DNA from: Liquidambar formosana
Lineage: Eukaryota > Streptophyta > Magnoliopsida > Saxifragales > Altingiaceae
Reading direction: 5' to 3'
Assembly: GCA_039720395.1 (NCBI GenBank)
Contig: CM077829.1
Coordinates: 25,313,955-25,377,954, forward strand
DNA: 64,000 nt
In this document: in pieces, positions 6,326 through 47,981 of the stretch
How positions within the stretch are numbered: the stretch's first letter is position 1
How the letters are laid out: each line of letters opens with the position of its first letter
Notes under the pieces: generated by a model
Database searches by the model: none
What the model was told of the DNA's origin: nothing
The model's input: the letters and a program-made list of their open reading frames with translations, nothing else
Position numbers and translations under genes: made by a program

Positions 6326-6472
6326 TGTAGACACCCCATTTTGTCCCTACATTTGATGATGATTTCCCGATGATGAGGTCCACAATGTTTGCCGTCTACC
6401 CGAGTCTCTTTCTACGCGTAAAGCAAGCAAATGGGGGTTCAAACGATTAAATTAGACAGCCAGGGAGTGTGG

Positions 6473-6565
6473 TGCGTACGCATATTTATAATATGCGTAC
6501 GCACTGGTGGTTTCATGCGTACGCATGAATAGCCATGCGTACGCATAAAATAATATGCGTACGCA
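6473..6565. promoter_or_regulatory. Palindrome array A (5' LTR, upstream of TATA)
   Basis: Five perfect TGCGTACGCA copies start at 6473, 6494, 6516, 6536 and 6556, giving steps of 21, 22, 20 and 20 bp. Spacers are 10-12 bp with unlike sequences. The array ends 165 bp upstream of the LTR TATA box. The core CGTACG contains GTAC, the core bound by plant SBP-box factors; any link to such a factor is inference. Confidence 0.9.
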
Positions 6566-6729
6566 TGAGATTCTATATTCATCATTCACTTCCCACTTCG
6601 ACCGAAAGCTTTGTCGGGGAATGATTTGGCCTTGAATTGGCCCGACCAGAATACCAAGGGGAGCGTGGGGGGGTCAAAGAAGAGGGGGTTTGAGGTCATG
6701 CATGACGACCTCGCTCGGGTGATTTCTCC

Positions 6730-6737
6730 TATAAATA
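6730..6737 (+). promoter_or_regulatory. LTR TATA box, element 1
   Basis: TATAAATA lies in the context CTCCTATAAATAGTAGGAGC, followed by a GA-rich leader. It is the likely core promoter for the genomic RNA of element 1, and the 3' LTR carries the same box near 22882. Confidence 0.75.
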
Positions 6738-7162
6738 GTAGGAGCTCTTGGGAGCTCAGGGAGGAGGACGGAAGGACGGACAGACGGGAAGAAATAGATA
6801 GGGAAATAATGAAAGGCAAGATTTTGGGTAACTGCTAGTTATTCTGAGGGTGAGAGAAATATGGGGAAGGTGAGAGAAAGAAACTGAGAGAAAAGAGAGG
6901 AAAATATAACAGAGAGTTAGACCAGTGAGGCTGGGAAAAGCTTGTATTGCGCAACAGGGGAGACGCTGCCGGGTTGATGGTGGACCTGAGGGAAGGATTT
7001 AATTTCAATTTGCTTTATTTCTAAGAGGTATGCAGTATTTATTTATTTATATAATTATGTAGGATGTTTAGAAGTTGATTTATTGTATATACTGTCCATT
7101 TTTGGCCAATAATGTTCTTCGGGAGGTCCAAATCCGCGGAGAAGATGATTTGGTGAAACCAT

Positions 7163-7294
7163 GAGTACTCGCGAAATATCATGCGTACGCATAATTTTAT
7201 TATGCATATGCATGGTATGTGCGTACGCATGGTGAGACCATGCGTACGCATGATAATACCATGCGTACGCATGGTAAGACCGCGAGTACTCGCG
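7163..7294. promoter_or_regulatory. Palindrome array B (5' LTR, transcribed part)
   Basis: TGCGTACGCA occurs at 7182, 7220, 7241 and 7262, with a variant TGCATATGCA at 7203. A different palindrome borders each side in the same phase: GAGTACTC at 7163-7170 and CGCGAGTACTCGCG at 7281-7294. Centre-to-centre steps are 20, 21, 17, 21, 21 and 21 bp. It lies more than 400 bp downstream of the TATA box, so it is probably transcribed. Confidence 0.88.
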
Positions 7295-7720
7295 ACAGTA
7301 CATTTTCTCTTATTTTCATTCTGTTAAGGCTTCCATATTTTTTATTAAATATTTATGCTTTATTTATTTATTCTATGCCATTAATCCATCATTCGTGTGT
7401 GCCATTTATTTATTGTATGATTAACAGGTGATCCGGATTTTATTAAAATATTAAATATGGTCAATGAATACAAGAATGAGGGCCGGTTTATTACCGGGCA
7501 TTGTTGGGTGCCTAACACCTTCCCAACATGTACCTTAGCTACGAACCCATCTCTGGTCAATAAAATTGGTCCTGGACCCTTCCAGGTGGCGACTCTCATT
7601 TGCACGCTAATCATAAATGGATTAGCACCATCAGAAAGCAGAAAAGCAAGTAAATATAGGTGAACTGAGGGAACGCGCGAGCGCGCGTGGCGGCGGTAAA
7701 AAAGTTCGGTGCGACCACAG

Positions 7721-7738
7721 TGGCGACTTTGCTGGGGA
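7721..7738 (+). other. Primer-binding site, element 1
   Basis: TGGCGACTTTGCTGGGGA starts one base after the LTR end. This TGGCGAC...CTGGGGA form is the type seen in Ogre/Tat elements, usually assigned to tRNA-Arg. I could not check the tRNA match. Confidence 0.8.
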
Positions 7739-8926
7739 CTGAGCTCAACCTCAAAGTATTCATTGACCATAATTAATATTTTAATTTAATACGAAAAAAA
7801 ACCAAAAAAAAAAAATGAATAAATGTTTTTGAAAAAAAAAATATATAATGTTGTTTTTTACAATAAAATACTGCACACACACACCGGCCTGTGTCTAAAC
7901 CCCGATGGTAGTTGGGTAAGGGTTCCCAGATTCCACTCGATTCTTGGGTAATTCTTATCTGCTCCATCAGCCCACAGCCTGTGCCACTAGCCTGTGATAA
8001 GCTTGTGAGTACGTTAACGGATTGCTCTCGGGCATCCTAGCTTGGGTAACCCATTGAAGGCGGAGGATATAAGGAGACCCTTGGTTTGAACTGCACGTTA
8101 AAAACATGGGTAAATTTACTTTTTCTGTACAATCCTGTGTGAATGTGTGACATGCATCATTTTCATTTTTAGGACCGGGTATGGGGCAAGGCCCAAAATT
8201 GTATAAAGGTTTTTTATCATTTCTAGGATTGGTAATGGGGCGAGGCCCAATATTGTTTAAAGTCTTTTAATTAAAACCCAAACAAAGAGTCAATCTTGCA
8301 ATTAGTTCACACCTATTAGAGAGTTATGAGACCACTGCATGTGCCTACTGTATAGAGATTACTGTTCATAGTCGTTGGAAACCTACTAGTTATAGCCTTT
8401 GGAGTGCACTCTTTCTAGCTTTTTGGGATCTGCTATTTCTAGCCGTTGTAGGTTTGTTCCTTAAGTATCCATTGTTATGCCTCTTAGATCTGCGCCTCTG
8501 TAACCATGACTTCTTCTGAGTGCCTTATAGCTGTCGTCTTGCACTTCACCCTTTTCATCTTAATGGTCAGCTTCTGTTTACGTGAGGGGGTTCCAGTGAA
8601 GGTGGCAGTTTCGTTTGTGACATTTTTTATGATGTCACTCGTGTTGATGTATTTCCTTTATTCTTAGGTCTTTAGAGGTTGTTCCATGTAAGTGTGTTTT
8701 TCCGGTTTTAGCTATGTATTCCGATCATTTTATGTGAATAAATGATAGGCTTCCTTTGTGTTCATCGGTTTGTTTTTTGTTGTGCTCCCACAAAAGAAAA
8801 AAAGAGAGAGATTTTATACACACAAAAAAAAATAAATAAATAAAAAAAAGAGAGGGGGGTGTTGTACATCCAAAAGTCCAAAAACCAGAAATCAAAAAAA
8901 AAAAAGGGGAAAGAGAGAGAGAATTG
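7739..8926 (+). other. Element 1 untranslated leader
   Basis: There is no sense coding region between the primer-binding site and gag. The leader includes A-rich runs (7794-7850 and 8820-8915) and T-rich stretches. The near-duplicate phrases GGTATGGGGCAAGGCCCAAAATTG (8168) and GGTAATGGGGCGAGGCCCAATATTG (8231) form a short direct repeat about 63 bp apart. Confidence 0.6.
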
Positions 8927-9493
8927 CTACTTGTTAGCAGCATCCTGAGGGGAATTTGAAGGCCCTGCTTCAGATTGTTTCTGAAGCCTTTCAAGTTGTT
9001 CTCGAATCTGTTCCCCGAACCCTTCTAGCTGCACAACCCTGGGCACAAGGCCTGTAGCATAGGAATCTATCATTCTTTTCACTTCGCCGTTCTCTCCTCT
9101 TAGGGACCTCATTGTCCGGTTAGATCTGTTGAGTGTTCGCTGGAGGCGTTGGATATGGTCGTTCAACCTCTGAATTTCCATGCCCCTAGCATATAGGCGT
9201 CGAGTCAGGTTAGCGGCAATTGTGGTTGCCTGAACATTTAGGGCCAAGGCACTCCTCATGATATCCACATCCGACCTCGTACTCAGTAGCACCTCATCGC
9301 GAGGAGTGATAAGCTCTGCACCCACTGCAGCTGCGTTTGTAGGGTTGTACACCAAGGTGTCACTCATCATGATTGGTTGGTCACCGGTTGGGAATACCGG
9401 GCGCCAGATGTTTGTCTGTGCTTCTGGCGCCGGTAATGCTTCTGGCACAATGTTTAGGTCTAGGTGGTTTGGAGAGGAAGAGGAAGATGCCAT
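8927..9493 (-). CDS. Antisense coiled-coil ORF between 5' LTR and gag
   Basis: This open frame of 188 codons runs opposite to gag. The N-terminus is serine-rich (MASSSSS) followed by LDLNIVP, which matches the DLNxxP form of the plant EAR repression motif. Residues about 95-170 form an amphipathic, Arg/Leu/Gln-rich helix likely to be a coiled coil (for example IQRLQRTLNRSN and IREQLERLQKQ). There is no signal peptide or membrane segment. I do not recognise the family. Coding status rests on frame length, composition and the coiled coil. Additional antisense ORFs are known in Tat elements, usually 3' of pol, so this position before gag is notable. No clear TATA box is seen just upstream of the ATG. 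Confidence 0.6.
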   Translation of the reverse strand: MASSSSSPNHLDLNIVPEALPAPEAQTNIWRPVFPTGDQPIMMSDTLVYNPTNAAAVGAELITPRDEVLLSTRSDVDIMRSALALNVQATTIAANLTRRLYARGMEIQRLNDHIQRLQRTLNRSNRTMRSLRGENGEVKRMIDSYATGLVPRVVQLEGFGEQIREQLERLQKQSEAGPSNSPQDAANK

Positions 9494-10486
9494 GAGAGTG
9501 AAGAGTTTTGTGAGTGTTGAATGATTGAAGGGGAACTGTGAGTCGCTGGCAATTCAATCTTTGTTTTTTAGAAAGGTTAGGGGTCATAAAGAGGGTCTTT
9601 TGACAATTAATGCGCTATTAGGGCACCCAGCGCGTCATCAGAGGATCCAACGGTATTAGGGTTTGAGAGTTATTTTAATCCTCTCGAGATTTGCATTTGT
9701 CGGCCAGTATCACCGTTTTGATGACAAGTGGCTAAGACTCAATATGTCAGCCACAGTGTCTGTGTCGGTAGGAATCTTGGGCAGTTGGGTGAGAGATAGG
9801 CTTCCATGTTTGGGCCCAGGGACTTGGACGTACCAAGTACCCATGGAAACAAGTTGAGTGTTATTGGGCTATTAGCCCAATACTCGTCCGTCAATAAGAA
9901 TAGGAGCCCAGGTTGATTTGAATTTCTGATAGGTTTGAAAAACTTATTGCAAGATTGAAACAAGTAATTGGGCCTTTAAGGAAAAGAAATTAAACAATGA
10001 TGTGGCCTACTTTGAACTAACCGACCCACTCGGCATGTGGATTTGGATTTAACTATTGAATCTGGCCTGGGTAATAACCTTGAAGCCCAATGTTATTTGA
10101 GTTTAAGCCCATTTAGTGTGAGGATTGTACAAAAATTGTGTAAGGAACTCATGCCCAAAAAAAAAAAATAAAAAAATAAAAAAATAATAAAAAGAAGGGG
10201 GGGCTGAGATCCAATTGAGAGTAGGATGAGTGAATTGTAAAGGGCTTAAATTCACAATGACATTGGATTTCTCTTGATTTATCTTATGCTAATTCTCTGA
10301 AGAATTAGTAGACATGACGAAAATTGGCATAAGATAAAAGGATTCTTAAAATGTTAATTATGTTGGGGTGGAACCTAAACAATTCTCGACTGGCAGAACA
10401 CAATTGGTTGCTCAACAAAATCACAAGACCTCAGTACTGCTTGGGTTAGGTCGCCGACAACAAACAGATTAAGAAAAGATAGAGCC
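9494..10486 (+). other. Element 1 leader before gag
   Basis: Non-coding sequence lies between the antisense ORF and gag, including an A-rich run at 10150-10197. Its left end would hold the promoter of the antisense ORF. No feature beyond that is supported. Confidence 0.55.
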
Positions 10487-11542
10487 ATGGTAGACTTTGC
10501 AATGATGGAAGTGTTGACTAGAATGGAGGCAACAATGGGAAAATTGGATGGGCGTTTGTCTGGGATAGAAAATCGCCTCCAAGTCTTGGAGAAAGAAAAA
10601 GAGAACGAAAAGCCAGAAGGAGAAACGACAAGTGAAGAGATACCTTCAGCAGAAAGAAAGGAGGAAGGGGCCTCAGGGGATAAAAAAGGCAAGGGAAAAG
10701 AAGAAAAAAAGGGAGTTGAAAGTGAAATGTGGGAGGAAGATGATTATGCTGATTATTTAAAGAAGAAAAAAGAATGGGAAAAATGGGAGAGATATACGGC
10801 AGGGCAGGAGGAGATGAAAGAGAAGGTGGAAAAGATGCATGCAGCAATGCGAAAATCTCAAGGTATGGATGATTTCATGTTTGTTGGAGGGTCATCCTCT
10901 GATCCTTTAGCAAATTTGCCATCCAAATTCAAAATTGCTGACACAGAAAAGTTTGATGGGGGTGGAGATCCCAAACAGCACATTCGCCAATATATGAGCA
11001 TTGTAAGAATGAAAGGGATGAACGAAGCCCAAGCTGTGGTTGCCTTTCCATTATCACTTGTCGGAGAAGCCTCTAAATGGTACTATGGTTTGGATGATGC
11101 ACAAGTTTCGTCTTGGGAAACCTTAATGAAGCTCTTCAAGGACCAGTATAATTACAATACCATGCTGGACACAACCTTGCGGGATCTTGAAATGACAGTA
11201 CAAAAGTCTGGGGAGACATTCTCTGACTTCCTAATCAGATGGAGGAAAAAGGCGATCAAGATGGTGAACAGGCCCACAGAAAGAGATCAAGTCAATTTGA
11301 TCATAAAAAATTTACAGCCTGTGTATTTCAACCGATTGTTAGCATCTCCTGTCATGAATTTTAAGCAGCTGTATGATTGTGGGACCCGTATCGAGCAAGC
11401 CATAAGCAGCGGTCAGGTGGATAGGTATGAAGGGAAGGCAATGAAGAAAACTTACGGGGCTGGAGGAAATGGTAGCGGTCAGGGAGGAAACAGGGTTGCC
11501 AATCCGCTTCCAAACTCAAGTACAGTAGCTGCTGTGAACTAA
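10487..11542 (+). CDS. gag: Gag (retrotransposon capsid region), element 1
   Basis: The 351-residue product has an N-terminal coiled-coil region with charged Glu/Lys runs (about 1-120), then a Ty3/gypsy gag core. FKIADTEKFDGGGDPKQHI opens the core (about 145-165), and the stretch ending SDFLIRWRKKA (about 245-255) is the retrotransposon gag motif. It would assemble the virus-like particle in the cytoplasm. The start ATG at 10487 is in a good context (GCCATGG). The frame stops at TAA (11540-11542), but the same frame resumes at once and carries the zinc knuckle and pol. The stop therefore cuts a single gag-pol frame, by mutation or by a readthrough stop. The homologous frame of element 2 has no stop at this point. 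Confidence 0.93.
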   Translation: MVDFAMMEVLTRMEATMGKLDGRLSGIENRLQVLEKEKENEKPEGETTSEEIPSAERKEEGASGDKKGKGKEEKKGVESEMWEEDDYADYLKKKKEWEKWERYTAGQEEMKEKVEKMHAAMRKSQGMDDFMFVGGSSSDPLANLPSKFKIADTEKFDGGGDPKQHIRQYMSIVRMKGMNEAQAVVAFPLSLVGEASKWYYGLDDAQVSSWETLMKLFKDQYNYNTMLDTTLRDLEMTVQKSGETFSDFLIRWRKKAIKMVNRPTERDQVNLIIKNLQPVYFNRLLASPVMNFKQLYDCGTRIEQAISSGQVDRYEGKAMKKTYGAGGNGSGQGGNRVANPLPNSSTVAAVN

Positions 11543-11572
11543 AGGGCTAGAAGAGAATTCGATGATCTGGGA

Positions 11573-14500
11573 ATGTCTCTATCTAAAGCTTTCGCCAATT
11601 TGATGAGGAGAGGACATCTGCAAGCCTTAGCACCGCGTCCCCTGCCTAATCCTCTCCCACCACGATATAATTTGAATGAATTTTGTCATTTCCATCAAAT
11701 GGCAGGACATAAGACAGACAACTGTGCCAGGCTGAGGCATGAGATCCAGGACTTGATTGATAATAAGAAGATTCCCAAGCCAGGAGCAGGAGCCGAACCA
11801 AACATCCATCAGAACCCTTTACCAGAATATCAAAGGAATGTGGGGCTTATAGAACAAGGCACCGGGATACGGGATCCCTCCGATCTTATAAGGGAAATAA
11901 TGGTATTAGATGTTGATGCTTGGAAGGACTGCGACGAAGTCAATGTCAAGAAAAGGGATTTCTGGGGTTCTATGGATGATGAGGATGGAATTCTGCATTT
12001 GACTCGATCTGGGAGGCATTTCAAACCTTCTTACCTGGAGGGAGATCACCCAGGAAGAGAAGCTGAGCTAAAAAGGAATAATAAGAAGTCAGATGAAGAA
12101 GATGATGAGGATCGTGTGCTGAAACAATTAAAGAAAACTCAGGCAAATATCTCTATATGGGGACTCTTGGTAGCATCCAAAAGGCATCGACAAGCTGTTT
12201 TGGAGGCCCTTGCCAGAAAAGAAGTACCTATGGAAATTTCACCAGAGCAAGTTGTAGCACTGATGGGTACAAACCCAGAAAGTGAAGCTGTAATGACATT
12301 CTCAACAGAAGATTTGCCAGCTGAAGGAGTGACACACGCCAAGCCCTTGTATATCACCGTGGAGTGCAGAGGAAAGAAAATACCGGTGGTCCTAGTGGAC
12401 AATGGATCTGCCTTAAATGTCTGCCCAATGCGCACTGCCTCCAAGTTAGGACTCACTGAAGAGCAGCTTACACCATCCGCCTTGACTATGCGAGCCTATG
12501 ATAATGGATGTCGCAAGATTGTGGGGACCTTCAAAGCCGCATGTATCGTGGGACCAGTCGAGTCCGAAGTAGAATTCTGCGTGATGGACATTGATACCAA
12601 TTTCAATCTCCTATTTGGTAGAACATGGTTACACCCACTAGGAGCCGTACCCTCTACTGTTCATCAGAAGATTAAGCTCCCCTGGAAAGAAGGAATTCTG
12701 ATAATACACGAGGATGGTGAAATCACTGCTCTAGTCTGCGAGGTAAAGGAAGAAGAAGCTGAAATGGCTTGGAGGGGATTTGAGATTATACAGGTTATTG
12801 AAAAAGAAGGACCGTATGGGATAGAAATGATTCCACCAAATCTTGGGGAAGGTGTTGGTCATATTGCTGCTCACCTCATGAGAAAGATGAATTTTATGCC
12901 TGGGATGGGTTTGGGAAAGTATAATCAAGGAGTAGCTGAGTTCCCTAATTTCAAACTGCAGGATAATCGTCTTGGTGTAGGATACAATAGCGAAAATAAC
13001 AGCTTACCGGTCAACAAGGGCACACTCAATGGGAACTTTGTTAAAGAAGGAGATGACTTTCCTTACTGTGGATTCCCAGAACCTTGGTTCGATCGTATGA
13101 CCGGAAAAACAGTCCCAGGATTGGAAATCTTTTTCAAGGCAGTGTTGAAAATCGAGGAAGAAAGGATGACCGATGCGAAGAAGGAAGAGTCTAAGACTGA
13201 AGACTGGAAGGATCTTCTGGAAGGGGAGACGATGCAAGCACTACTGGAACCCAAGCGGACTGAGAGGATTAATGCCTTGATTGATGAAGATGCTGCTGAC
13301 GACTCAGCCAATCTGATCTCTTCTGCTGATGGAAGTACCAGCACATGGGAATGGAAAAAGGGGGTTGAAATTGTAACTAGCATCATAACTGAGAATAAGC
13401 TCAAACCCAAAAATGTGACCACCCCTTTTGTTGGAAATAACATCTTTAATTCCGCGTATTTCGATGAGTCTTTCTATGATGAAACTGCATTATCACAGGA
13501 TATCGATTACATTGAAGAATTAATTAAAAAAGATCAAGAAAGGAAAGTAATACCTATTCAAGAAGAAACTATTTTAATAGACTTAGGTATTAATGAGAAT
13601 CATAAAGAAATACGAATTGGTTCCACCTTATCTGAAGAGGAGCAGGGCAAATTGATAGCTTTGTTGCATGAGTATAATGATGTGTTCGCCTGGTCTTATC
13701 AAGATATGCCTGGTATTGATCCTGAGATAGCACAGCATCACATACCAATAAAAGAAGACGCTAAGCCAGTGAAGCAGAAGTTTCGCCGCATGAAGCCTGA
13801 GTTGATGATAAAAATCAAAGATGAAGTCACTAAACTTCTCAAGGTGGGGTTCATTCAGACAATGACACGAACTGATTGGGTGGCCAATATTGTACCGGTT
13901 CCAAAGAAAGATGGGAAGATACGGATGTGCGTAGACTACAGGGATCTCAACAAGGCATGCCCAAAAGACGATTTCCCGTTGCCTCACATTGATGTCCTGG
14001 TGGATAATATGGCTAGAAGCGCAATGATGTCATTCATGGATGGGTTCTCAGGCTACAATCAGATTAAGATGGCTCCAGAAGATATAAGCAAGACAACCTT
14101 TGTGACAGAGTGGGGAATCTATGGCTACACAGTCATGCCTTTTGGCCTGAAGAATGCAGGAGCGACTTACCAGAGGATGGCTACAACACTCTTACACGAC
14201 ATGATGCACAAAGAGGTGGAGGTATATGTTGATGACATGATTGTGAAGTCAGAGACTAGAGAAGAACACTGGGCCAATCTGAAGAAGTTCTTTGATAGAA
14301 TCAGGAGATATAAGCTGAGGCTGAACCCGCAAAAATGCACTTTTGGGGTAACGACTAGGAAATTACTGGGTTACGTGGTGAGTAGCAGAGGTATTGAAAT
14401 AGATCCGATGAAGATCAAAGCCATCCTTGAAATGGCGCCTCCAAAAACTGAGAAAGAGATCAGAGGATTCCTGGGGCGATTGCAGTATATCAGCCGTTTC

Positions 14501-16831
14501 ATAGCCAAGATGACCACTACTTGTGAACCAATTTTCAAGTTACTCAAGAAAGGGGAAAGCAAAGAATGGAATGATCAATGCCAACGAGCTTTCGATGCAG
14601 TAAAGGAGTACCTTTTAAAACCACCAATTCTACAGCCTCCTAGGTTGGGAAGACCCTTATTGCTTTATTTATCAGTATTCGAGGAAGCATTGGGATGTAT
14701 GTTCGCTCAGGATGATGGACAAGGAGGTGAGTATGCCATATACTACCTCAGTAAGAAGTTGCATGATTATGAAACACGTTATTCCCCGATTGAGAAATCG
14801 TGTTTCGCTCTTGTGTGGGCTGCAAAGAAGTTAAGACACATTCTGCTGAGTTATGAAGTTTGGGTGGTGGCTCGGATAGATCCATTGAAATACTTGTTTG
14901 AGAAGGCTGTGCTGAATGGGAGAATGTCGCGATGGGCAATAATCTTGGCAGGATATGAATTGAAATATGTCACTCGGAAGAGCATGAAAGGGCGAGCAAT
15001 AGCAGAACACTGTGCAGAGCATCCAGTCGTGGGGCAAACTCTTGATGACGATTTCCCGGATGAAGATGTTTTGACGATTGAAGAAGGAAGGATGTGGAAG
15101 ATGTACTTCGACGGAGCCTCAAACCAATACGGGGATGGGGTCGGGGTATTACTAATTGCTCCAGACGGTTCGCATATCCCAATGTCCGTAAAGTTGAATT
15201 TTGAGAATTCAAACAACACAGCAGAGTATGAAGCGTGCATCGCAGGAATGGAGGCTCTATTGGTTTTGGGGATACGAGAAGTGGAGGTTTATGGTGATTC
15301 TGCCTTGGTAATATCCCAAGTTCAGAAGATATGGAGAACCAGAGAAGAACATCTCAAGTCGTACCAGGGGTATTTAGAGAAATTAGCTCGGAAGTTCGAT
15401 AAAGTTACTTATACTCCACTCCCTAGGTCACACAATCAGTTTGCCGATGCTCTAGCGACTCTAGTATCCATGATCAATGTGCCAGAAGGAGCCCCAATAA
15501 AGCCATTAAGTATAAACCAGAGGTCTCGACCTGCATATGAAGAGGCTGTAATGTTAATAGATGCAGAACCTGATGATGGGAAACCTTGGTACTACGATAT
15601 CAAGAATGTGATTGAGAAAGGGGAATATCCAGAAGGCGCTAATCGGAAGGATCGAAGGGCATTACGCCTTATAGCCGCTCAGTATATCTTGTGTGGGGGA
15701 GATTTGTATAGAAGGTCGTATGATGGGGTCCATTTAATGTGTGTGGATGAAGAAAAGGCCCGAGTTCTTATGGGAGAGGTGCATGAAGGTGTCTGTGGGC
15801 CTCACATGAGCGGCAAGATGTTAGCCAAGAAGATAGTCAGAATGGGGTATTTCTGGACAACCATGATGAGAGATTGCGTGGAGTACGTAAAGAGGTGTCA
15901 TCAATGCCAGGTATATGCCAATTTGAATTACATGCCGCCAGTGGAATTGCATCAAATGACCTCACCTTGGCCATTCTCCACCTGGGGCATTGACATAATT
16001 GGAGAAATTAAACCCAAGGCTACGGGTGGGCACAAGTATATTCTGGTTGCCATAGATTATTTCACCAAATGGGTAGAAGCTTCTGCTTATGCGGAGTTGA
16101 AGTCGTCGCATGTAGTTCGATTCATTGAACAGAACATTATATGTCGATATGGAGTGCCGCATGAAATAATCACAGATAATGGGTTACATTTCCAAAATGA
16201 GGTCAAAGTGCTACTCGAAGAGTATCAGATAAAGCATCACAAGTCTTCCCCGTATAGGCCTCAGACGAATGGAGCGGTAGAAGCTGCCAACAAGAACATC
16301 AAGTCTATCATGGAGAAGAGTACGGTCACGTACAAAGACTGGGCGGAGAAACTACCATTTGCACTATGGGGATATCGTACATCTGTAAGAACGTCAACTG
16401 GTGCAACACCCTACTCTTTGGTGTACGGGATGGAAGCTGTACTGCCAGTGGAGATGGAGGTTGGGTCGCTGAGGGTCATGGTGGAGAATCGGATACCAGA
16501 AACAGAATGGGTGAAGAGCAGATATGAACAATTGGCGTTGATTGACGAGAAGAGATTGCAGGCTCTGTATCATGTCCAAGGCTATCAGAAGAGAATCGCC
16601 AGAGCTTTCAACAAGAGGGTGAGGCCTAGAGGACTAAAAGAGGGAGATTTGGTGCTTAAACAAATGCAAGCGCAGATATTTGATCCAAGGGGCAAGTTCA
16701 GGCCCACTTGGATGGGCCCGTACATTATAAAGACGATCATGACAGGAGGCGCAGTTAAGTTGATTGATGGGGACGGTAACGAACTCATGCAACCAGTCAA
16801 CATGGATCGATTACGGAAGTACTATGTATAA
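11573..16831 (+). CDS. pol: Pol polyprotein: protease, RT, dual RNase H, integrase (element 1)
   Basis: The 1752-residue frame is in phase with gag. In order it shows a gag-type CCHC-like knuckle with His at the second position (CHFHQMAGHKTDNC, about 36-50); aspartic protease VDNGSA (about 274); a G-patch-like segment FMPGMGLGKYNQG (about 437-458); RT with YVDD (about 884); gypsy RNase H (about 1020-1150); a second, archaeal-type RNase H starting YFDGAS (about 1178); integrase HHCC (about 1403-1445); and DDE residues in GIDIIG, TDNG and GAVEAANK (about 1474-1570). It ends at TATGTATAA. The second RNase H places it in the Tat clade. No internal stop or frameshift is seen, so it may be functional if the upstream stop is bypassed. 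Unlike element 2 there is no intron between protease and RT. Confidence 0.95.
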   Translation: MSLSKAFANLMRRGHLQALAPRPLPNPLPPRYNLNEFCHFHQMAGHKTDNCARLRHEIQDLIDNKKIPKPGAGAEPNIHQNPLPEYQRNVGLIEQGTGIRDPSDLIREIMVLDVDAWKDCDEVNVKKRDFWGSMDDEDGILHLTRSGRHFKPSYLEGDHPGREAELKRNNKKSDEEDDEDRVLKQLKKTQANISIWGLLVASKRHRQAVLEALARKEVPMEISPEQVVALMGTNPESEAVMTFSTEDLPAEGVTHAKPLYITVECRGKKIPVVLVDNGSALNVCPMRTASKLGLTEEQLTPSALTMRAYDNGCRKIVGTFKAACIVGPVESEVEFCVMDIDTNFNLLFGRTWLHPLGAVPSTVHQKIKLPWKEGILIIHEDGEITALVCEVKEEEAEMAWRGFEIIQVIEKEGPYGIEMIPPNLGEGVGHIAAHLMRKMNFMPGMGLGKYNQGVAEFPNFKLQDNRLGVGYNSENNSLPVNKGTLNGNFVKEGDDFPYCGFPEPWFDRMTGKTVPGLEIFFKAVLKIEEERMTDAKKEESKTEDWKDLLEGETMQALLEPKRTERINALIDEDAADDSANLISSADGSTSTWEWKKGVEIVTSIITENKLKPKNVTTPFVGNNIFNSAYFDESFYDETALSQDIDYIEELIKKDQERKVIPIQEETILIDLGINENHKEIRIGSTLSEEEQGKLIALLHEYNDVFAWSYQDMPGIDPEIAQHHIPIKEDAKPVKQKFRRMKPELMIKIKDEVTKLLKVGFIQTMTRTDWVANIVPVPKKDGKIRMCVDYRDLNKACPKDDFPLPHIDVLVDNMARSAMMSFMDGFSGYNQIKMAPEDISKTTFVTEWGIYGYTVMPFGLKNAGATYQRMATTLLHDMMHKEVEVYVDDMIVKSETREEHWANLKKFFDRIRRYKLRLNPQKCTFGVTTRKLLGYVVSSRGIEIDPMKIKAILEMAPPKTEKEIRGFLGRLQYISRFIAKMTTTCEPIFKLLKKGESKEWNDQCQRAFDAVKEYLLKPPILQPPRLGRPLLLYLSVFEEALGCMFAQDDGQGGEYAIYYLSKKLHDYETRYSPIEKSCFALVWAAKKLRHILLSYEVWVVARIDPLKYLFEKAVLNGRMSRWAIILAGYELKYVTRKSMKGRAIAEHCAEHPVVGQTLDDDFPDEDVLTIEEGRMWKMYFDGASNQYGDGVGVLLIAPDGSHIPMSVKLNFENSNNTAEYEACIAGMEALLVLGIREVEVYGDSALVISQVQKIWRTREEHLKSYQGYLEKLARKFDKVTYTPLPRSHNQFADALATLVSMINVPEGAPIKPLSINQRSRPAYEEAVMLIDAEPDDGKPWYYDIKNVIEKGEYPEGANRKDRRALRLIAAQYILCGGDLYRRSYDGVHLMCVDEEKARVLMGEVHEGVCGPHMSGKMLAKKIVRMGYFWTTMMRDCVEYVKRCHQCQVYANLNYMPPVELHQMTSPWPFSTWGIDIIGEIKPKATGGHKYILVAIDYFTKWVEASAYAELKSSHVVRFIEQNIICRYGVPHEIITDNGLHFQNEVKVLLEEYQIKHHKSSPYRPQTNGAVEAANKNIKSIMEKSTVTYKDWAEKLPFALWGYRTSVRTSTGATPYSLVYGMEAVLPVEMEVGSLRVMVENRIPETEWVKSRYEQLALIDEKRLQALYHVQGYQKRIARAFNKRVRPRGLKEGDLVLKQMQAQIFDPRGKFRPTWMGPYIIKTIMTGGAVKLIDGDGNELMQPVNMDRLRKYYV

Positions 16832-16923
16832 GAAGAAGCATATGAACTACGAGGACCTGATTTCCCAAGAAGAAGAAAAAGAGAAAGAAATAAATCATGA
16901 TATCGCAACATTTAAGTCGGGAA

Positions 16924-16950
16924 TACGTAGGCAGCCCTGAATGGGTGCGG
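16924..16950 (+). promoter_or_regulatory. Conserved post-pol motif (TACGTAGGCAGCC ... GGGTGCGG)
   Basis: 93 nt after the pol stop, TACGTAGGCAGCC is followed by TGGGTGCGGTC. Element 2 has the same pair after its own pol (minus strand, 44397-44426), and TACGTAGGCAGC recurs near the 3' LTR of element 1 (22341-22352). Function is unknown; an RNA signal for the genomic transcript or a shared terminator is possible. Confidence 0.6.
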
Positions 16951-17178
16951 TCCATATTATGGAAGGAAAATGAGATGTTATAATCTGTGGAGGCAATGGT
17001 GGAACCAATCCGTAATTATCACGATTCTTGTTAAATACATGGGTCAATTAAAAGCGAATTCTTGAGAATGGATAACTAGTACATCCTGATCATTTTTATT
17101 TAAATTAAAAATGTAAGAAGGAAACGATGAAATGTGCAGTGAAATCTGAAGAAAGAGGCATTGGCATACGTTTCATTT

Positions 17179-17728
17179 TCACTTTCTTATCCTCTTTGAA
17201 GGCCCTTCTTCTCCAGTTGATTCTTTCCTCTTATGGGGAGACTTTGGTTCCACTTTCTTGGCATTTTCTAAATCCCTAGCCAGCCAGTCATAATAGGATG
17301 ATGGTGGGCTCACTAATGTCGGAGCCCGAAGGTTGCCCATCCGGGACCTATTTTCCCATGATGATCGAACTCGCTCGACGGCTCGAGAGAAGATGGGGCA
17401 GGTGTATCCAGCATGATCTTTAATAAGAGCATATTGATTCTTCCCAAATTGACGTGCAATACGGGACGCAGGACAGTATGAGATATCATGCAGGCCAATC
17501 AACATTACACTCCCGGGGAATACTAACTCGGTGGTCATTTGATCGATATGCCACCACGGGCAGTGCCAAAGGATGTGGTGACAAGACAAAGAGCCCAAAA
17601 ATTCTTGCAGTTTCTCATGATTGGGAAAGGGTTTAGCTAGCTTGCGATAGCGATAATGTTCTGGACGAAAAGGATATACCGTGGGCGCTTCAACCAATTG
17701 GAGACGTTCATGCAGCCATATCTGATGG

Positions 17729-17775
<47 letters not shown>

Positions 17776-18452
17776 GAAGAAAAATTTTTGTGTTGATTTG
17801 ACAGATTAATGGTATGGGAATAACTGATTACCTGTAATAGAAGAGGGCTGTCACGCAGTAAAGAAGTCCCTTTTCGCACAGCATCGTCAAGGCCATTGAG
17901 GGTTTCTGCAAGAATCATCATGCATGGATTATGGGAAGAAATGTGTTGTACCACGTGAAGGAGAGCCAGGTCAACTGAGTGGAGGTCACTGATGAGAAGA
18001 TACCCCGCTAGTAAGCATAGGCAAAGAGCCCGGAATGCATAATTGTCTGGTAAAGGAAGAGCGGTAGAAAAATGCTGCACAAGAGGCTCGAGATTTATGG
18101 TAGAATTAATGCACCATGATCTGGCCTGCTCTACAGAAATGTTTAGAGCCAAGGCAAGGTCAGGAGAATAGAGCATGGCTTGAGAAGGAAACAAGGGATC
18201 ATGGGAAACGGGGTAATTAAGAATTGCGCCAAATTCCTCTATGGTGGGGCAAACCTCTATGTTGTTAAAACGGAACACATGACGAAGAGGGTCCCAATAT
18301 TTCATAGCTGTTGAGAGGAAACCTTCATTGATCCTCACTTGGCAGTGGTGGATTAAAGAAGAAAGATGAGTTGACTCAAGTAGATGGGCTGTTTGCTGGT
18401 GGACAGACAGAAGCCACCTTTTGATATTCAGGAGAGAGAAGGAGACTGCCAT
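17179..18452 (-). CDS. Antisense two-exon gene, DUF7745-like protein (element 1)
   Basis: Exon 1 is 18452-17832 and exon 2 is 17721-17179; together they code for 387 residues. The donor is CAG|GTAATC and the acceptor ATCAG|ATATGG after a poly-pyrimidine tract of about 43 T (minus strand). The join gives LLLQ-IWLHERLQ, matching LLQ-MWLLERLN in the intronless homologue of element 2 (42966-44252), which strongly supports the splice. The core YWDPLRHVFRFNNIEVCPTI resembles the DUF7745 family common in plant genomes and TEs. The C-terminus (KRKES...GPSKRIRK) is basic and looks like a nuclear localisation signal. A TATA box (18494-18501) and palindrome array C (18624-18735) lie upstream. Because it is antisense, its intron survives retrotransposition of the sense RNA. 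The biochemical function is unknown. Confidence 0.8.
17732..17774 (-). repeat. Poly(A)/poly(T) run inside the antisense-gene intron
   Basis: About 43 consecutive A on the + strand form the pyrimidine tract before the 3' splice site on the minus strand. Its exact length is prone to slippage and assembly error. Confidence 0.85.
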
Positions 18453-18493
18453 GATATCTTGAAAGGATGGGAGAGTAAATGGGAAGGATCACC

Positions 18494-18501
18494 TATTTAT
18501 A
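18494..18501 (-). promoter_or_regulatory. TATA box of the antisense DUF7745-like gene
   Basis: The minus strand reads TATAAATA, 42 nt before the ATG at 18452. The homologous gene of element 2 has TATAAAA at a similar distance from its ATG (42910-42916 to 42966). Confidence 0.65.
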
Positions 18502-18623
18502 GAAGGAAGAATGACGATGCTGGCTGAAATAGGGAGATGCTCCCTGCACCAAAAGTCGTTTTTCATGATGAAAAGGTGGGCTGTGTTGGTCAAAGCGCCA
18601 AAAAATGAGGTTGGCATTCCCCA

Positions 18624-18735
18624 TGCGTACGCACGTTTTCTCATGCGTACGCATATTTGTGATATGCGTACGCACCATCCTTCATGCGTACGCACCCCTA
18701 TTCATGCGTACGCATATTTTGATTATGCGTACGCA
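18624..18735. promoter_or_regulatory. Palindrome array C (upstream of the DUF7745-like gene)
   Basis: Six perfect TGCGTACGCA copies start at 18624, 18644, 18665, 18685, 18705 and 18726, giving steps of 20, 21, 20, 20 and 21 bp. The five spacers are 10 or 11 bp and unlike each other. The array lies 123 bp upstream of the minus-strand TATA box. Confidence 0.92.
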
Positions 18736-19144
18736 CCCCAAGGCCAAATCCATTTTTTTTTTACTCGTTTCCTGCTTTGGTGTGTTTGTTCCTCAATCCA
18801 CTCGTTATCATTCATCTGATGACTTTGTTGGGCTTATTTCTCGTTTAAAGATGCAGATACAATAAATAAAGTAAAAGGGGAGACAAAAGGGAGATATCAC
18901 CACCGAAAGATGCAAACAAAAGGCAAGAACATCAATCATATGGATAGAAAGTACGAGGCACCCATGTGCCTAATTCAGTCAAAAGGGAAGATAGGTGCAC
19001 CCATGTGCAGATCAAATGTGTAAAATAAGAAGTAAACAAAAGGAAAAGAAATTGTTTAAGTTACACCCCAAATAATAAATTGTTTTAAGAAAGCAAAGCT
19101 AAAAGGGCCCTCCACGACGCCCTCGCCCTCGAGTACTCCTGCTC
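18736..19144. other. Spacer between the two 3' antisense genes
   Basis: No gene is seen. GGCACCCATGTGC-type phrases occur twice (18957 and 18992). The segment holds the 3' end of the PMD-like gene and the upstream region of the DUF7745-like gene. Confidence 0.5.
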
Positions 19145-21648
19145 CTAACACTTAGGGGCATGAGATGAGCTCCCACCCTGTTGAGCGCTCGAAGCCTCAT
19201 CACCACCACCTCTAGGTGGACCCCCAGGTGGACCACCAGGTGCCATTGGACCGCCATGCAGCCTCATAGAATAATCCGTCACCATAGCCTTCAGACTTCC
19301 CACTAACTGGATCATGTCTGCGGACTCAGCCATGTTGAGCTGCAATGGGGAAAATGCGGACAGTCATACATACATGTGCACATATTTTGCAAATAAATTC
19401 ATTATGCAGGAAAGAAAAAGAAGAGAAGAGCAGGTACGCACTCTGCGAGTACCAGGAGCCATGGGGTAGCCCAGAACGTTGTCCCGGCGCGGGATTTCAT
19501 TCTCAATAAAATATCCAGCGGGTGACCATTCAGTCACACGCCAGCCAGGCAACACCGGATTAATCCCTTCATCCCCACCCTCATCAGCAGGAGGAGCAAC
19601 CTAGGAAGAAATGCAATCAGCAAGAGTTCAAGTTGTACAGTAAATTGAGGCAATGAAATGTAAAGGAATATATACCTGGGGCCCAAGGAGCCGGGGTATG
19701 AGAAACTCAGCTGCAAACACATCATAATCTCCATCGGGAAGGAGACGAGCATCACAAGGTATACCTGCCTGCCAGACGCCCAAGTCCTCCTCACTGATAT
19801 TGTATGGGTAGATCATGAAAGAAGGAGGAAGCATAGGCACCCGCTGCCATGCAAGGACCTCATCAGAAAGCTGCCACATGACCCTCTCCGGCAAGTAAAC
19901 AGCTCGGGAAATAGGAGAGTCGAGTATAGAGCAGGTCAGTGAAGCCCTCAATGCTGCATCATGCATGGCCTGGTCGCCAGTAAAGGGGACACCAGTCCAT
20001 GGGCGGGGTCGAATCTGTAAGAAGAAAAGTCAAAAAATTGCAAGGAAATTAAGGTACTTGGTTAGAGAATTTTAAAGGATTATACCTTGTTCAAGGGCGC
20101 AGTGTCCAGGAATTCGCGTATACGGTCATACCCCGATATGGGACGACCATCATCCCCGGTGAAGTCGATGTAGCGGCGGGCCCAAAGCTGTGTTAAAAAA
20201 AAAAAGAAAAGAAAAAGAAAAAAAAAATGAAAATGATGACGGGCATCAAAATATAATATGGAAGCAAAGGACAAACAAAGCAATGAAAGAAAGCTTACCG
20301 CCCATAATCGCCAACATCCCGTGATGGAAGAAATCTGGTCCCTACTCAACGAATCCATGGAGGTATACAGATAAGACAGGACTGCCTGACCCCAAGCAAA
20401 CTGACTGCAAGTCTCCAGATCCTCCAAAGCTACTAGCCAGACAGTGGTCATAGACTGGGCAGAGTTTGGGAATAGAAAAGCACCAATCAAGTACAGAATG
20501 AAACTCCGCGCCATGATCTGTTGCTCCCGGGTAGTCCCCTGAGGTCCATACTGAAAGGCCTCCGCCACATCAGTATAATGACAATGGCCCGATGTGAAGC
20601 TCGTCCCTATCACCCGACGATGAAACTGTGCGATCTCCTCCCCGGAAGGATATGAGGATGGAATGGAGGAGCCAATCACCCTCAGCCCGGTCAATCTGAA
20701 GACGTCGTAAGGGGTGATGGTTAGCTCTCTACCAGCGATGTGCATGGTGTGGGTAGAGTCCCACCATCTCTCAGCGATGCAGTAGCAAAGGGATTTGCTC
20801 CCGTCATGTGTCAGGAGATCCACGACTGAGCCAAAGCCGGCCTGAATGACGTACCCCTTGGTGTTGTCATTCAACCGCTTCCACCAAGCCCAGGCAGTGG
20901 AAGCATTCCCTCGAGTGGAGAGATCGCGACGCGCCTGCCAAGAGCCAAACAGGTAAATGACAGCACAGGTATGTGATAAGTAACAATAGGTGGTACTTCA
21001 AAAAGTGCCAAAAGAAGGAAAACAGGAGAATAAGTCGGCACCACCCGAGTCATGCGTACGCATAATTTAATATGCGTACGCATGATAAGACTGTGCGTAC
21101 GCATGATAAGACCATGCGTACGCCTGGTTCGGTGCAGAATTTTTTATTATTTGTTTATCGTGTCTGTAAATGAAAGGTTCGATTTTTATGCCAATCTTGG
21201 GTTCAAAAATGAGTTTTTTCTGCCTACATGCATATGTCAGATAGGGTCAAATATTATTCTCCTGGTTTCATCAAAATATGCATTCAGTTTTGAATAGGGT
21301 GGATGTACAGTGGACCTTGCACCACAAAACAATCCAAAGATTTGATTTTTAAGGTTCGTTTACAGATTAAAGGATAAAATAATGGTTTTGGTGATGCTTC
21401 CAATCCAGATTCCACAGATATTTCATGCATTATTTCAGATCCATATATTGACAAAAACTTTATGAAAGAAAATAGGTACAAAGAGAGCGTACCTCGCCCA
21501 CCCGACAACGCCGGGACAAGTGCTCTGCTGGACGGAAAGTAGGAGTGATGACCTCGCCAGAATGGATGGTAGGCAGCCACCTTTTGTTGACTGAATCGTC
21601 CCCTTGGGAGTGAGAAGACCCATGCTGTCGTTGCCTCTTGGGAGCCAT
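19145..21648 (-). CDS. Antisense six-exon gene, plant mobile domain-like protein (element 1)
   Basis: Exons read by eye: 21648-21493, 20934-20299, 20187-20086, 20014-19676, 19600-19442 and 19339-19145. They total 1587 nt, 528 residues plus stop. All five introns have GT...AG ends and all junctions are in phase 0. The protein starts MAPKRQRQ (basic, possibly nuclear) and has the PMD-like core ERWWDSTHTMHIAGREL followed by TITPYDVFRLTGL. The C-terminal half has YPYNISEEDLGVW and FLIPRLLG, and the end is a Gly/Pro-rich tail. PMD proteins (MAIN/MAIL1 in Arabidopsis) are nuclear and linked to transposon silencing, and PMD-like genes are often carried by plant TEs. A TATA-like box (21764-21770) and array E lie upstream; array D lies in intron 1. 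All exons are open. Exon limits need RNA evidence. Confidence 0.75.
21053..21124. promoter_or_regulatory. Palindrome array D (PMD-like gene, intron 1)
   Basis: TGCGTACGCA starts at 21053, 21073 and 21094, and a one-base variant TGCGTACGCC at 21115. Steps are 20, 21 and 21 bp. It lies in the first intron, about 370 nt downstream of the exon 1 donor. Confidence 0.88.
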
Positions 21649-21763
21649 GAGAAGAGCAATGGATGAAAGAGAAAGAAGAGTTTTGGAAGAAGGAGGAGTT
21701 GTAAAGAATGAGGATGGGAAAAGACGGCTAAAAAGAATGAGAAGGAGAAAGGGTTTCAAACCC

Positions 21764-21770
21764 TTTATAA
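21764..21770 (-). promoter_or_regulatory. TATA-like box of the PMD-like gene
   Basis: The minus strand reads TTATAAA about 115 nt before the ATG at 21648. Array E starts 44 bp upstream. Confidence 0.5.
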
Positions 21771-21813
21771 GTACCGCCTCAAAAGGCGTGCGAATGCTGA
21801 GGGAATAAAACCA

Positions 21814-22005
21814 TGCGTACGCATGGAGATCCAGGCGTACGCATATTTATAATATGCGTACGCATGGTTTGACCAGGTTTGACCATGCGTACGCATGGTA
21901 GTTTTGAAACTTGAAAAAGGAGCGCGACTTTTGGGATGCTGATTCCCCATAGCATGCGTACGCATGGTATGCTGCGCGTACGCATATTGAGAATATGCGT
22001 ACGCA
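21814..22005. promoter_or_regulatory. Palindrome array E (upstream of the PMD-like gene)
   Basis: Perfect TGCGTACGCA starts at 21814, 21855, 21886, 21955 and 21996. Variants occur at 21834 (GGCGTACGCA) and 21975 (GCGCGTACGCA context). The triplets 21814/21834/21855 and 21955/21975/21996 each step by 20 and 21 bp. The two blocks share spacer phrases (for example TATTTATAATA and TATTGAGAATA), suggesting partial duplication. Confidence 0.88.
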
Positions 22006-22480
22006 TGGTTTGACTGAGGTCGAAAATTTTGACTCAAGTTTGTCTGCGGAAAACTTGATTTGCCTTGAGAGGACCCGTCCCTGATTTTTGGAAGGAATTG
22101 CTGCAGAATTCCGACATTGATGCCTGAGACTTGCTGCGGGGGTCTCGCTTTGCCCTGATTGGGCAGGCTTATAATTGGTTGGCTGGGATGCTGCGGGACC
22201 AGTCAAACCTTGATGGAATGTTTTTTTAACTAGAATTGCTGCGGGATTCTAGCATGTCTTAGAATTTGTTGAAGAAATCTTCCCTAGGATTGATTTGACT
22301 TTGATAACACGAACTACGTGAGGGTCTGATCTCTGCGGAGTACGTAGGCAGCTGGATGCGTCTAGCACGACCCGACACATTGCATGAGTGCGTGTGATTT
22401 GCATGTGGACAAAATGTTCGTCTGGAGATTTTCTTTCGAATCCTCCCCACGAAGTGGCAAGAATTCGAAAGAGGGGCAAC
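22006..22480 (+). other. Element 1 3' untranslated region and polypurine tract
   Basis: Non-coding. Short phrases around GCTGCGGG recur (22131, 22190 and 22235). The post-pol motif TACGTAGGCAGC recurs at 22341-22352. The polypurine tract AAAGAGGGGCAAC (22468-22480) directly precedes the 3' LTR and would prime plus-strand DNA synthesis. Confidence 0.75.
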
Positions 22481-22627
22481 TGTAGACACCCCATTTTGTC
22501 CCTACATTTGATGATGATTTCCCGATGATGAGGTCCACAATGTTTGCCGTCTACCCGAGTCTCTTTCTACGCGTAAAGCAAGCAAATGGGGGTTCAAACG
22601 ATTAAATTAGACAGCCAGGGAGTGTGG

Positions 22628-22719
22628 TGCGTACGCATATTTATAATATGCGTACGCATGGTGGTTTCATGCGTACGCATGAATAGCCATGCGTACGCAT
22701 AAAATAATATGCGTACGCA
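22628..22719. promoter_or_regulatory. Palindrome array F (3' LTR copy of array A)
   Basis: TGCGTACGCA starts at 22628, 22649, 22670, 22690 and 22710, giving steps of 21, 21, 20 and 20 bp. The 12-bp spacer of array A is 11 bp here. Confidence 0.9.
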
Positions 22720-23327
22720 TGAGATTCTATATTCATCATTCACTTCCCACTTCGACCGAAAGCTTTGTCGGGGAATGATTTGGCCTTGAATTGGCCCGAC
22801 CAGAATACCAAGGGGAGCGTGGGGGGGTCAAAGAAGAGGGTGTTTGAGGTCATGCATGACGACCTTGCTCGGGTGATTTCTCCTATAAATAGCAGGAGCT
22901 CTTGGGAGCTCAGGGAGGAGGACAAAGGGGGGACGGAAGGACGGACAGACGGGAGGAAATAGATAGGGAAATAATGAAAGGCAAGATTTTGGGTAACTGC
23001 TAGTTATTCTGAGGGTGAGAGAAATATGGGGAAGGTGAGAGAAATAAACTGAGAGAAAAGAGAGGAAAATATAACAGAGAGTTAGACCAGTGAGGCTGGG
23101 AAAAGCTTGTATTGCGCAACAGGGGAGACGCTGCCGGGTTGACGGTGGACCTGAGGGAAGGATTTAATTTCAATTTGCTTTATTTCTAAGAGGTACGCAG
23201 TATTTATTTATTTATATAATTATGTAGGATGTTTAGAAGTTGATTTATTGTATATACTGTCCATTTTTGGCCAATAATGTTCTTCGGGATGTCCAAATCC
23301 GCGGAGAAGATGATTTGGTGAAACCAT

Positions 23328-23459
23328 GAGTACTCGCGAAATATCATGCGTACGCATAATTTTATTATGCATATGCATGGTATGTGCGTACGCATGGTGA
23401 GACCATGCGTACGCATGATAATACCATGCGTACGCATAGTAAGACCGCGAGTACTCGCG
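23328..23459. promoter_or_regulatory. Palindrome array G (3' LTR copy of array B)
   Basis: TGCGTACGCA starts at 23347, 23385, 23406 and 23427, with TGCATATGCA at 23368. It is bordered by GAGTACTC (23328) and CGCGAGTACTCGCG (23446-23459). The spacing is identical to array B. Confidence 0.88.
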
Positions 23460-24014
23460 ACAGTACATTTTCTCTTATTTTCATTCTGTTAAGGCTTCCA
23501 TATTTTTTATTAAATATTTATGCTTTATTTATTTATTCTATGCCATTAATCCATCATTCGTGTGTGCCATTTATTTATTGTATGATTAACAGGTGATCCG
23601 GATTTTATTAAAATATTAAATATGGTCAATGAATACAAGAATGAGGGCCGGTTTATTACCGGGCATTGTTGGGTGCCTAACACCTTCCCAACATGTACCT
23701 TAGCTACGAACCCATCTCTGGTCAATAAAATTGGTCCTGGACCCTTCCAGGTGGCGACTCTCATTTGCACGCTAATCATAAATGGATTAGCACCATCAGA
23801 AAGCAGAAAAGCAAGTAAATACAGGTGAACTAAGGGAACGCGCGAGCGCGCGTGGTGGCGGTAAAAAAAGGTCGGTGCGACCACAATGGCTTGATGATTA
23901 TATGTGTTTTGACATTATGGTTTGAATACTTGGTCATGAAACATTCTCTAAGAACTAGTTTATAAGGTACTGGTTTGAGAATTTCCATTGAAATGTAATG
24001 ACTTAATTATATTA

Positions 24015-40063: not shown

Positions 40064-40199
40064 GAAGCCCCTCATTGGCGAACAAGTTACACTTGTGAAC
40101 CAATGATAAAGAACAACCCATTTTTGGCCAAAAAGTCCGGAGAAATCACACACTGATACCAACAATGATGGGAGGTTGAAAACCTGAGACTGAAATAAG

Positions 40200-42480: not shown

Positions 42481-42767
42481 TAGGATGAAAAATCAAGATT
42501 TGAAATGAGGATATATGATCAATTTATCAAGATTGAACAGGCATGGTGCAAGAGGAAAGTGACTTAACACATTGTCACTTGAGTTGGCATGACACAGGGG
42601 AAATATATTCAACCCTTTTGAACATAAAATCAATTCAAGGAATTGATTTCAAGATGGAATTTGATTGATTTTAAGCTCAAAAAGTGTTGAATATCTCATT
42701 TGGAAGGAGGTTTGATCACGCGTCAAGGCGAGACAAAGCGAAGGAGAAAGCCAAAACAAGGTGGCTT

Positions 42768-42819
42768 GGGTGACCACCAGGCCTCGGGAGGCTAGCCGCC
42801 CAGGCCTGGGTGGTTACCC
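42768..42819. repeat. Imperfect inverted repeat upstream of the antisense gene
   Basis: GGGTGACCACCAGGCCT (42768-42784) pairs with AGGCCTGGGTGGTTACCC (42802-42819), with one mismatch and one bulge. It is GC-rich in an AT-rich setting and lies about 90 bp upstream of the TATA box at 42910. Confidence 0.75.
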
Positions 42820-42909
42820 GAGCCCGAAGCGGAAATCCCACTTTGAATAGGAAACTTCCTATTCTGATGGGTTTTTTCCTATTTGAACTTGGATTTGTGA
42901 CCTTTTCCC

Positions 42910-42916
42910 TATAAAA
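42910..42916 (+). promoter_or_regulatory. TATA box of the antisense DUF7745-like gene (element 2)
   Basis: TATAAAA in CCCTATAAAAACAC lies 50 bp before the ATG at 42966. It supports independent transcription of the antisense gene. Confidence 0.65.
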
Positions 42917-47962: not shown

Positions 47963-47981
47963 AGAGGAGAGAAAAGAGACA

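Follow-up and report, generated by a model that had tools for sequence, protein, structure and literature searches.

The retrotransposon and its palindrome arrays

The stretch analyzed here, a 64-kb window of the Liquidambar formosana genome (GenBank assembly GCA_039720395.1, contig CM077829.1, forward-strand positions 25,313,955 to 25,377,954), contains a 17.6-kb Ty3/gypsy retrotransposon of the Tat type with long terminal repeats (LTRs), hereafter element 1, in which short palindromic words are gathered into arrays on which this report centers. Element 1 occupies window positions 6326..23885 on the plus strand and is bounded by an LTR pair that is 98.1% alike (5' LTR, 6326..7719, end approximate; 3' LTR, 22481..23885; both placed from LTR comparison and sequence) and flanked on both sides by the target-site duplication ATGGC, read by eye. 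Its plus strand encodes gag (10487..11542; Pfam Retrotrans_gag, 1.2e-6) and pol (11573..16831), the latter with Pfam matches to reverse transcriptase (RVT_1), RNase H, a second RNase H (RVT_3), integrase (rve) and a G-patch. As the second RNase H (pol 1180-1296) lies between RT_RNaseH and rve, element 1 is assigned to the Tat lineage (Ogre/Retand), for which a second RNase H in this position, ahead of the integrase, is given as the rule (PMC6317226).

Two spliced antisense genes, g1 and g2, both lie between pol and the 3' LTR; their splice sites were placed by eye, and both proteins have basic stretches resembling nuclear localization signals (likewise seen by eye). The PMD gene g2 (19145..21648, minus strand) consists of six exons (21648..21493, 20934..20299, 20187..20086, 20014..19676, 19600..19442 and 19339..19145) that encode a stop-free protein of 528 amino acids (Pfam PMD, 1.1e-26), while the DUF7745/PMD-like gene g1 (17179..18452, minus strand) has two exons (18452..17832 and 17721..17179) encoding 387 amino acids (DUF7745, 1.3e-15; PMD, 7.5e-9). 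Element 1 thus has a PMD extra open reading frame (ORF), as judged from Pfam, and PMD is reported in 57% of Ogre elements (Neumann 2019, PMC6317226); such an ORF in place of TRP28, together with the phylogeny of the reverse transcriptase, would tell Ogre from Retand. A third antisense ORF (8927..9493, minus strand, 188 amino acids) has no Pfam match at 0.001 and family matches at chance level only; two more copies are 94-95% alike by tblastn, one of them with a stop, and evidence of selection on this ORF is weak.

All 35 GCGTACGC sites of the window fall inside element 1, where they make up seven arrays (A to G), and the longer word TGCGTACGCA, allowing at most one mismatch, has 37 matches in the window against 0.43 expected, a number reached by 0 of 100 shuffles. 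Array A (6473..6565; five copies of TGCGTACGCA) ends 165 bp before the LTR TATA box at 6730, and array F (22628..22719), its 3' LTR copy, 165 bp before the TATA box at 22884. Array C (18624..18735; six sites) lies 123 bp upstream of the minus-strand TATA box of g1 (18494-18501), array E (21814..22005; four plus three sites, two of them mismatched) lies 44 bp upstream of the minus-strand TATA-like box of g2 (21763-21770), and array D (21053..21124; four sites, one mismatched) is in intron 1 of g2 (20935-21492). These distances, and the placement of array D in the first intron, had been proposed in an earlier note made from the sequence and were all exact on recount. Array B (7182..7271), with four sites and one TGCATATGCA, and its 3' LTR copy, array G (23347..23436), lie within the LTRs approximately 450-550 bp downstream of the TATA box. 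A second palindromic word, GAGTACTCGCGA, borders arrays B and G on both sides (window 7160-7300 and 23320-23460).

Conservation, phasing and genomic occurrence

The array sites are conserved at the level of coding sequence, and the spacers between them are drifting. When the PMD promoter region was aligned over 29 of 30 fetched copies (locus L044 being left out for a large indel), changes were found in 6/1348 CpG and 10/2020 non-CpG cells of the sites, in 4/290 and 152/4927 cells of the spacers, in 18/1682 and 106/16936 cells of g2 exon 2, and in 54/2017 and 586/32120 cells of other non-coding sequence, respectively. Non-CpG change is thus lower in sites than in spacers (p 3e-13) and CpG change lower in sites than in other non-coding sequence (p 3e-7); between sites and exon 2, the corresponding p values are 0.55 (non-CpG) and 0.06 (CpG). 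Position by position, GCGTACGC changes in 0-0.9% of cases, the outer T in 1.8% and the outer A in 0.6%, and of the 16 neighboring positions 14 change in 1-15% and two in none, such that the low-change footprint is the word of 8-10 bp itself. These data support the conclusion that the array sites are under selection.

Spacing is equally regular. Among 92 distinct spacers in the fetched loci, 49 give distances of at most 22 bp, of which 46 are 20 or 21 bp; a further 18 give 41-42 bp (two periods), and 25 have other lengths. The step of 20-21 bp is therefore constant although the spacer sequences differ, and neighboring sites stand two helical turns apart, phased on the DNA helix.

Throughout the 718-Mb host genome, 6,483 pairs of TGCGTACGCA at 18-23 bp, 5,088 triplets of CGTACG at 20-21 bp and 920 pairs of a longer word, GCACGTACGTGC, were counted, with 0 matches for the reversed-pattern control in each case; a search of a collection of viral contigs for arrays found none. 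The protein-based searches of the genome cited below scored the best candidates only (82 of 5210 and 150 of 3505 for the two PMD lists, 117 of 7944 for PF10536, 118 of 3958 in a further search, and 150 of 916 for DUF1985), and positions refer to those listed.

Array words and their relation to PMD type

A sister family at C1:2332500-2348400 (loci L006 and L055) carries relatives of the pol, PMD and DUF7745 genes of element 1, with identities of 68% for pol, 43% and 33% for two segments of PMD, and 35% and 44% for DUF7745. Its arrays follow the same layout as those of element 1, mostly in 21-bp steps, and are composed of CACGTACGTG-type (GCACGTACGTGC-type) words, which occur in two LTRs approximately 135 bp upstream of the TATA box and again downstream of it. 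One site lies at the PMD promoter and two runs of three CGTACG sites, with a few others, lie in PMD intron 1; four CGTACG sites, some of them degenerate, precede the DUF7745 gene and two lie in its intron. An LTR sits between the PMD and DUF7745 genes at these loci, and the two genes may come from different elements; an LTR carrying TGCGTACGCA sites is inserted beside the PMD promoter.

With PMD genes assigned to types 1 and 2 by identity rather than from a tree, all 30 close type-1 loci have 8-14 TGCGTACGCA and no CACGTACGTG. Among six diverged type-1 loci (63-80% identical to g2), CACGTACGTG occurs in 0/6, GCGTACGC in 5/6 and the full ten-base TGCGTACGCA in 3/6 (two copies in L051 at 75% identity, four in L052 at 80% and 11 in L054 at 73%), so that CACGTACGTG is found in 0/36 type-1 loci overall. 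Of the remaining three, L053 (78%) has two GCGTACGC and decayed words, L049 (65%) has no CGTACG in 2.7 kb and an LTR upstream of its exon, and L050 (63%) shows TGCGTGTGCA-like words in 21-bp steps in intron 1 (1853-1895 and near 1315), possibly a third motif variant or the outcome of decay. All six diverged type-2 loci (70-85% identical to the L006 PMD) have one or more CACGTACGTG and, nearby, words that nearly match it. On C1, in the listed stretch to 37.756 Mb, a type-2 pair precedes the exon-2 match by 112-370 bp in 5/5 type-2 PMD matches, and for a sixth match just beyond that stretch the pair is 2.4 kb upstream; among the places listed, a type-2 pair lies within 3 kb of 0/5 type-1 PMD matches. 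At least one pair with intron-like spacers (C1 24843260) has no PMD match listed. In this one contrast of two types, the array word follows PMD type. Words and PMD/DUF7745 proteins differ together between the families, which is to be expected if an element-encoded protein reads the arrays.

Arrays also occur in elements that lack the antisense genes. L007/L008 (LTRs 99.7% alike) and L013/L014 (99.4%) have TGCGTACGCA arrays in their LTRs, in L013 upstream of a TATA box, and encode gag, with no reverse transcriptase, integrase or PMD match to the window proteins; L005 and L012 carry arrays and match none of the window proteins at 1e-5. By blastn, these LTR regions have in common with the element 1 LTR no more than approximately 20 bp of terminus, a box of 40-85 bp and the motif. 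Such elements would fit non-autonomous parasites of a trans-acting factor for which the sites suffice.

A second Tat-type element in the window, element 2 (37276-54867, minus strand), carries a PMD gene antisense to itself (42966-44252; 428 amino acids, one exon) whose tblastn segments share 27-33% identity with DUF7745-like genes, one piece of 35 amino acids reaching 54%. Its LTR has just two CGTACAC sites, at 39440 and 39461, which are 21 bp apart and precede the LTR TATA box by approximately 170 bp, much as arrays A and F do. GC-rich palindromes, GGCTAGCC and CAGGCCTG, are common to the promoters of the element-2 PMD gene and of L066, a related gene, upstream of TATA. The element-2 PMD protein has chance-level matches only among PDB sequences, and its AlphaFold model was discarded as too poor (pLDDT 45.8). 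Element 2 further contains, at window 40280-42508, a tandem array of 38 hairpin-like units (of 43 loop matches), in which the AAGTGAT-type loop is kept and the arms form 20 different pairs, most of them complementary; stems varying together in this way recall structured RNA or inverted repeats subject to conversion.

Elsewhere in the genome, four PF10536 matches split like g2 were rejected as LTR-element PMDs, one of them, L056, having what the author reads as a PB1-like upstream exon; all four lack an array in the approximately 1.25 kb upstream and serve as negatives. A tandem cluster of strong PMD genes (G000 C15:5576544-5610003; PF10536 up to 397 bits) has a host-gene-like appearance.

A candidate reader, its rivals and its relatives

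Taken as sequence evidence, these observations make it very probable that the elements possess a code for self-recognition and that a protein reads it. An element-encoded reader is the favored view, held with moderate confidence, and with similar confidence the palindrome arrays are predicted to be binding sites for such a protein, most likely g2, perhaps together with g1, that keeps the promoters active. A dimer of the protein would read each palindrome, and neighboring dimers, separated by two helical turns on one face of the DNA, may bind cooperatively. Once occupied, the arrays would sustain transcription from the LTR and from both antisense promoters, whether through direct activation or, in the manner of VANC, through relief of silencing (a mode that is no more than plausible), and the factor would thereby feed its own expression.

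The choice of g2 draws on its pN/pS (the ratio of nonsynonymous to synonymous change) and on its domain content. In two copies found through their arrays, pN/pS is 0.113 and 0.130 for g2, 0.216 and 0.156 for pol (which has 2 or 4 stops in these copies), and 1.07 and 0.44 for the third antisense ORF; a value of 0.032 for g2 over 30 copies is biased, these copies having been chosen by protein similarity. The PMD gene g2 is under purifying selection. Its protein matches Pfam DUF1985 at 4.6e-6 (27.1 bits against a cut-off of 35.1), a match also present below cut-off in P0001 (3e-5) and in the type-2 exon (1.5e-4); g1 and the element-2 PMD have no DUF1985 match at 0.001, and DUF287 is not listed by Pfam for g2 at that threshold. 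Among the best 150 of 916 candidates in the genome, 83 match DUF1985, of which 74 lie on listed PMD loci (70 in one PMD list and four in the other). Because its pN/pS is lower and it is, of the two, the sole DUF1985 match, g2 is the better reader candidate.

Several observations weigh against a reader of this kind. The assertion in the earlier note that one motif marks every main promoter stands for the LTR, g1 and g2 promoters and is otherwise too strong, because the third antisense ORF has no CGTACG anywhere in 7800-10400; in addition, arrays B and G (downstream of TATA) and D (intronic) are not promoter-upstream. An antisense PMD gene is not always accompanied by arrays: element 2 has no TGCGTACGCA arrays, a k-mer scan of 37276-40064, 42480-44603 and 44603-52079 (words of 9, at least four copies, three within 200 bp) found no dispersed array in it, and the promoter of L066 has none in 611 bp. 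The note had named arrays in families without the antisense genes, combined with their absence from families that have those genes, as the pattern that would speak against it, and this pattern is partly present, in the gag-only L007/L008 and L013/L014 on the one hand and in element 2 on the other, although the absence from element 2 fits a more distant PMD type as judged from sequence. One of the six type-2 loci, L065, has one TGCGTACGCA besides its two CACGTACGTG, and the motif switch, though seen at many places, is a single evolutionary contrast. As to the proteins, g1 and g2 both differ between the families, so neither is singled out as reader; each of the two array-found copies has one stop in g2; g1 has a pN/pS of 2.1 (7 to 1 changes) in one of them and 0.30 in the other; nine of the 83 DUF1985 matches lie away from listed PMD loci; and every DUF1985 score, including all 83, is below the Pfam cut-off.

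The alternative that fares best, which overlaps with the favored explanation and to which we assign a minor share of the probability, holds that g1 is the reader in place of g2, or that only a g1/g2 heterodimer reads the arrays. Like g2, g1 has an upstream array and is family-divergent, and the host proteins MAIN and MAIL1 interact with each other (PMC8616336); nevertheless, pN/pS is lower for g2 than for g1 in both comparisons, and DUF1985 is matched by g2 alone. Somewhat less probable is binding by a GTAC-core transcription factor of the host (e.g., SBP/SPL), whose sites the elements would have gathered to drive their LTRs. The CGTACG common to both words leaves room for such a reader, CGTAC being present in both array types and in the two element-2 LTR sites, and SBP domains are known to bind a palindromic GTAC core (PMC12026679). 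Yet at every homologous site the two sister families of this genome have different words, and the positions distinguishing the families, four in number, change in 0.3-1.8% of cases (the inner two in 0.3%), close to the 0-0.9% of the core CGTACG and below most neighbors (mostly 1-7%).

It is improbable that the arrays act as RNA, with adjacent palindromes forming hairpins in the genomic or antisense transcript for packaging, dimerization or as a small-RNA source. The spacers do have an inverted symmetry of 0.476 against a shuffled mean of 0.377 (0.476 being reached by 0 of 2000 shuffles), and the unrelated tandem array of element 2 consists of hairpin-like units whose stems change while the loop stays; however, a hairpin loop needs no 20-21 bp spacing, the arrays adjoin TATA boxes on both strands, and the site changes less than the spacer that would extend the stem. 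Least credible is a neutral origin by slippage and conversion: Retand elements often have tandem arrays between pol and the 3' LTR (PMC11963269), but a ten-base word is kept here among spacers that differ and drift, equal change of site and spacer is not seen, and arrays also occur in LTRs that share with element 1 only the short terminus, the box and the motif.

The element-encoded reader has its closest counterpart in the VANC proteins of VANDAL21 and VANDAL6 in Arabidopsis, in which, as here, a protein encoded by a transposable element (TE) is paired with short, family-specific motif repeats in non-coding DNA (Hosaka 2017, PMC5735166), a trans effect being predicted in the present case. This parallel, drawn in the earlier note, gains from the repeated sub-threshold DUF1985 match of PMD proteins, given that the anti-silencing VANC proteins are depicted as having DUF1985 and DUF287 (PMC5735166, Fig. 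5 legend), and from the family-specific arrays; it does not extend to class II membership, as VANC systems belong to DNA transposons and element 1 is an LTR retrotransposon with LTRs, gag, reverse transcriptase and integrase. Moreover, the VANC motifs are YAGTATTAY or AGTTGTCC/AC, and "palindrom" does not occur anywhere in the text of PMC5735166, unlike the palindromic words of element 1; VANC has been shown to bind its motif (PMC5735166), whereas a PMD reader in element 1 is a prediction from sequence. Host MAIN/MAIL1/PP7L and the DOWN motif likewise tie PMD proteins to a short promoter motif and TE silencing (PMC7156037; PMC9899485), as proposed here; these are host genes, the passages concerned describe no phased palindromes, and binding of DOWN by PMD proteins is putative there too. 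CATGC is common to the MORC1 DOWN motif CATGCAGTTT and the half-site CATGCGTAC, a weak likeness that may be due to chance; in the window the DOWN motif has 0 exact and seven one-mismatch occurrences against 6.3 expected.

Ogre/Retand elements resemble element 1 in that antisense ORFs and tandem arrays lie in the region separating pol from the 3' LTR (PMC6317226; PMC11963269), and a regulatory role has been suggested for the antisense TRP28 proteins of Tat elements (Vicient 2025, PMC11963269); cognate promoter motif arrays and co-divergence of motif and protein do not figure in the portions of these accounts that bear on the subject. That TEs make PMD proteins of their own to counter silencing has already been suggested in print (PMC8616336), the same functional idea, there presented, in the passage concerned, without a target motif or evidence from element DNA. 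Literature linking PMD with palindrome arrays was not found in a search that left preprints and most subscription papers outside its reach, and TGCGTACGCA as a word turns up in three papers, the two listed ones being unrelated to judge by their titles. A preprint is reported to treat PMD-motif modules and Polycomb; it carries no weight in the present argument. The literature searched yielded the counter-silencing idea (PMC8616336) but neither the cognate palindromes nor their phasing, their switch with PMD type or the link to DUF1985.

A broader and more tentative proposal is that Tat PMD and VANC proteins may both belong, as separate branches, to a single PMD/DUF1985 superfamily of anti-silencing factors that TEs encode and that read motifs, in which each family would evolve its own protein-palindrome code, gag-only elements would steal that code, and hosts would later have adopted MAIN/MAIL1 for their own use. 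PMD is found both in many plant retrotransposons and among the host genes controlling silencing. Two candidate pairs of protein and motif occur naturally in this one genome, along with candidate sites in the thousands and two or more gag-only "cheaters" that moved recently, so that the role of PMD becomes reducible to a simple cross-binding test. If the proposed reading is true, self-recognition of the VANC kind would extend from DNA transposons to LTR retrotransposons, and plants would have a new reader of short DNA words.

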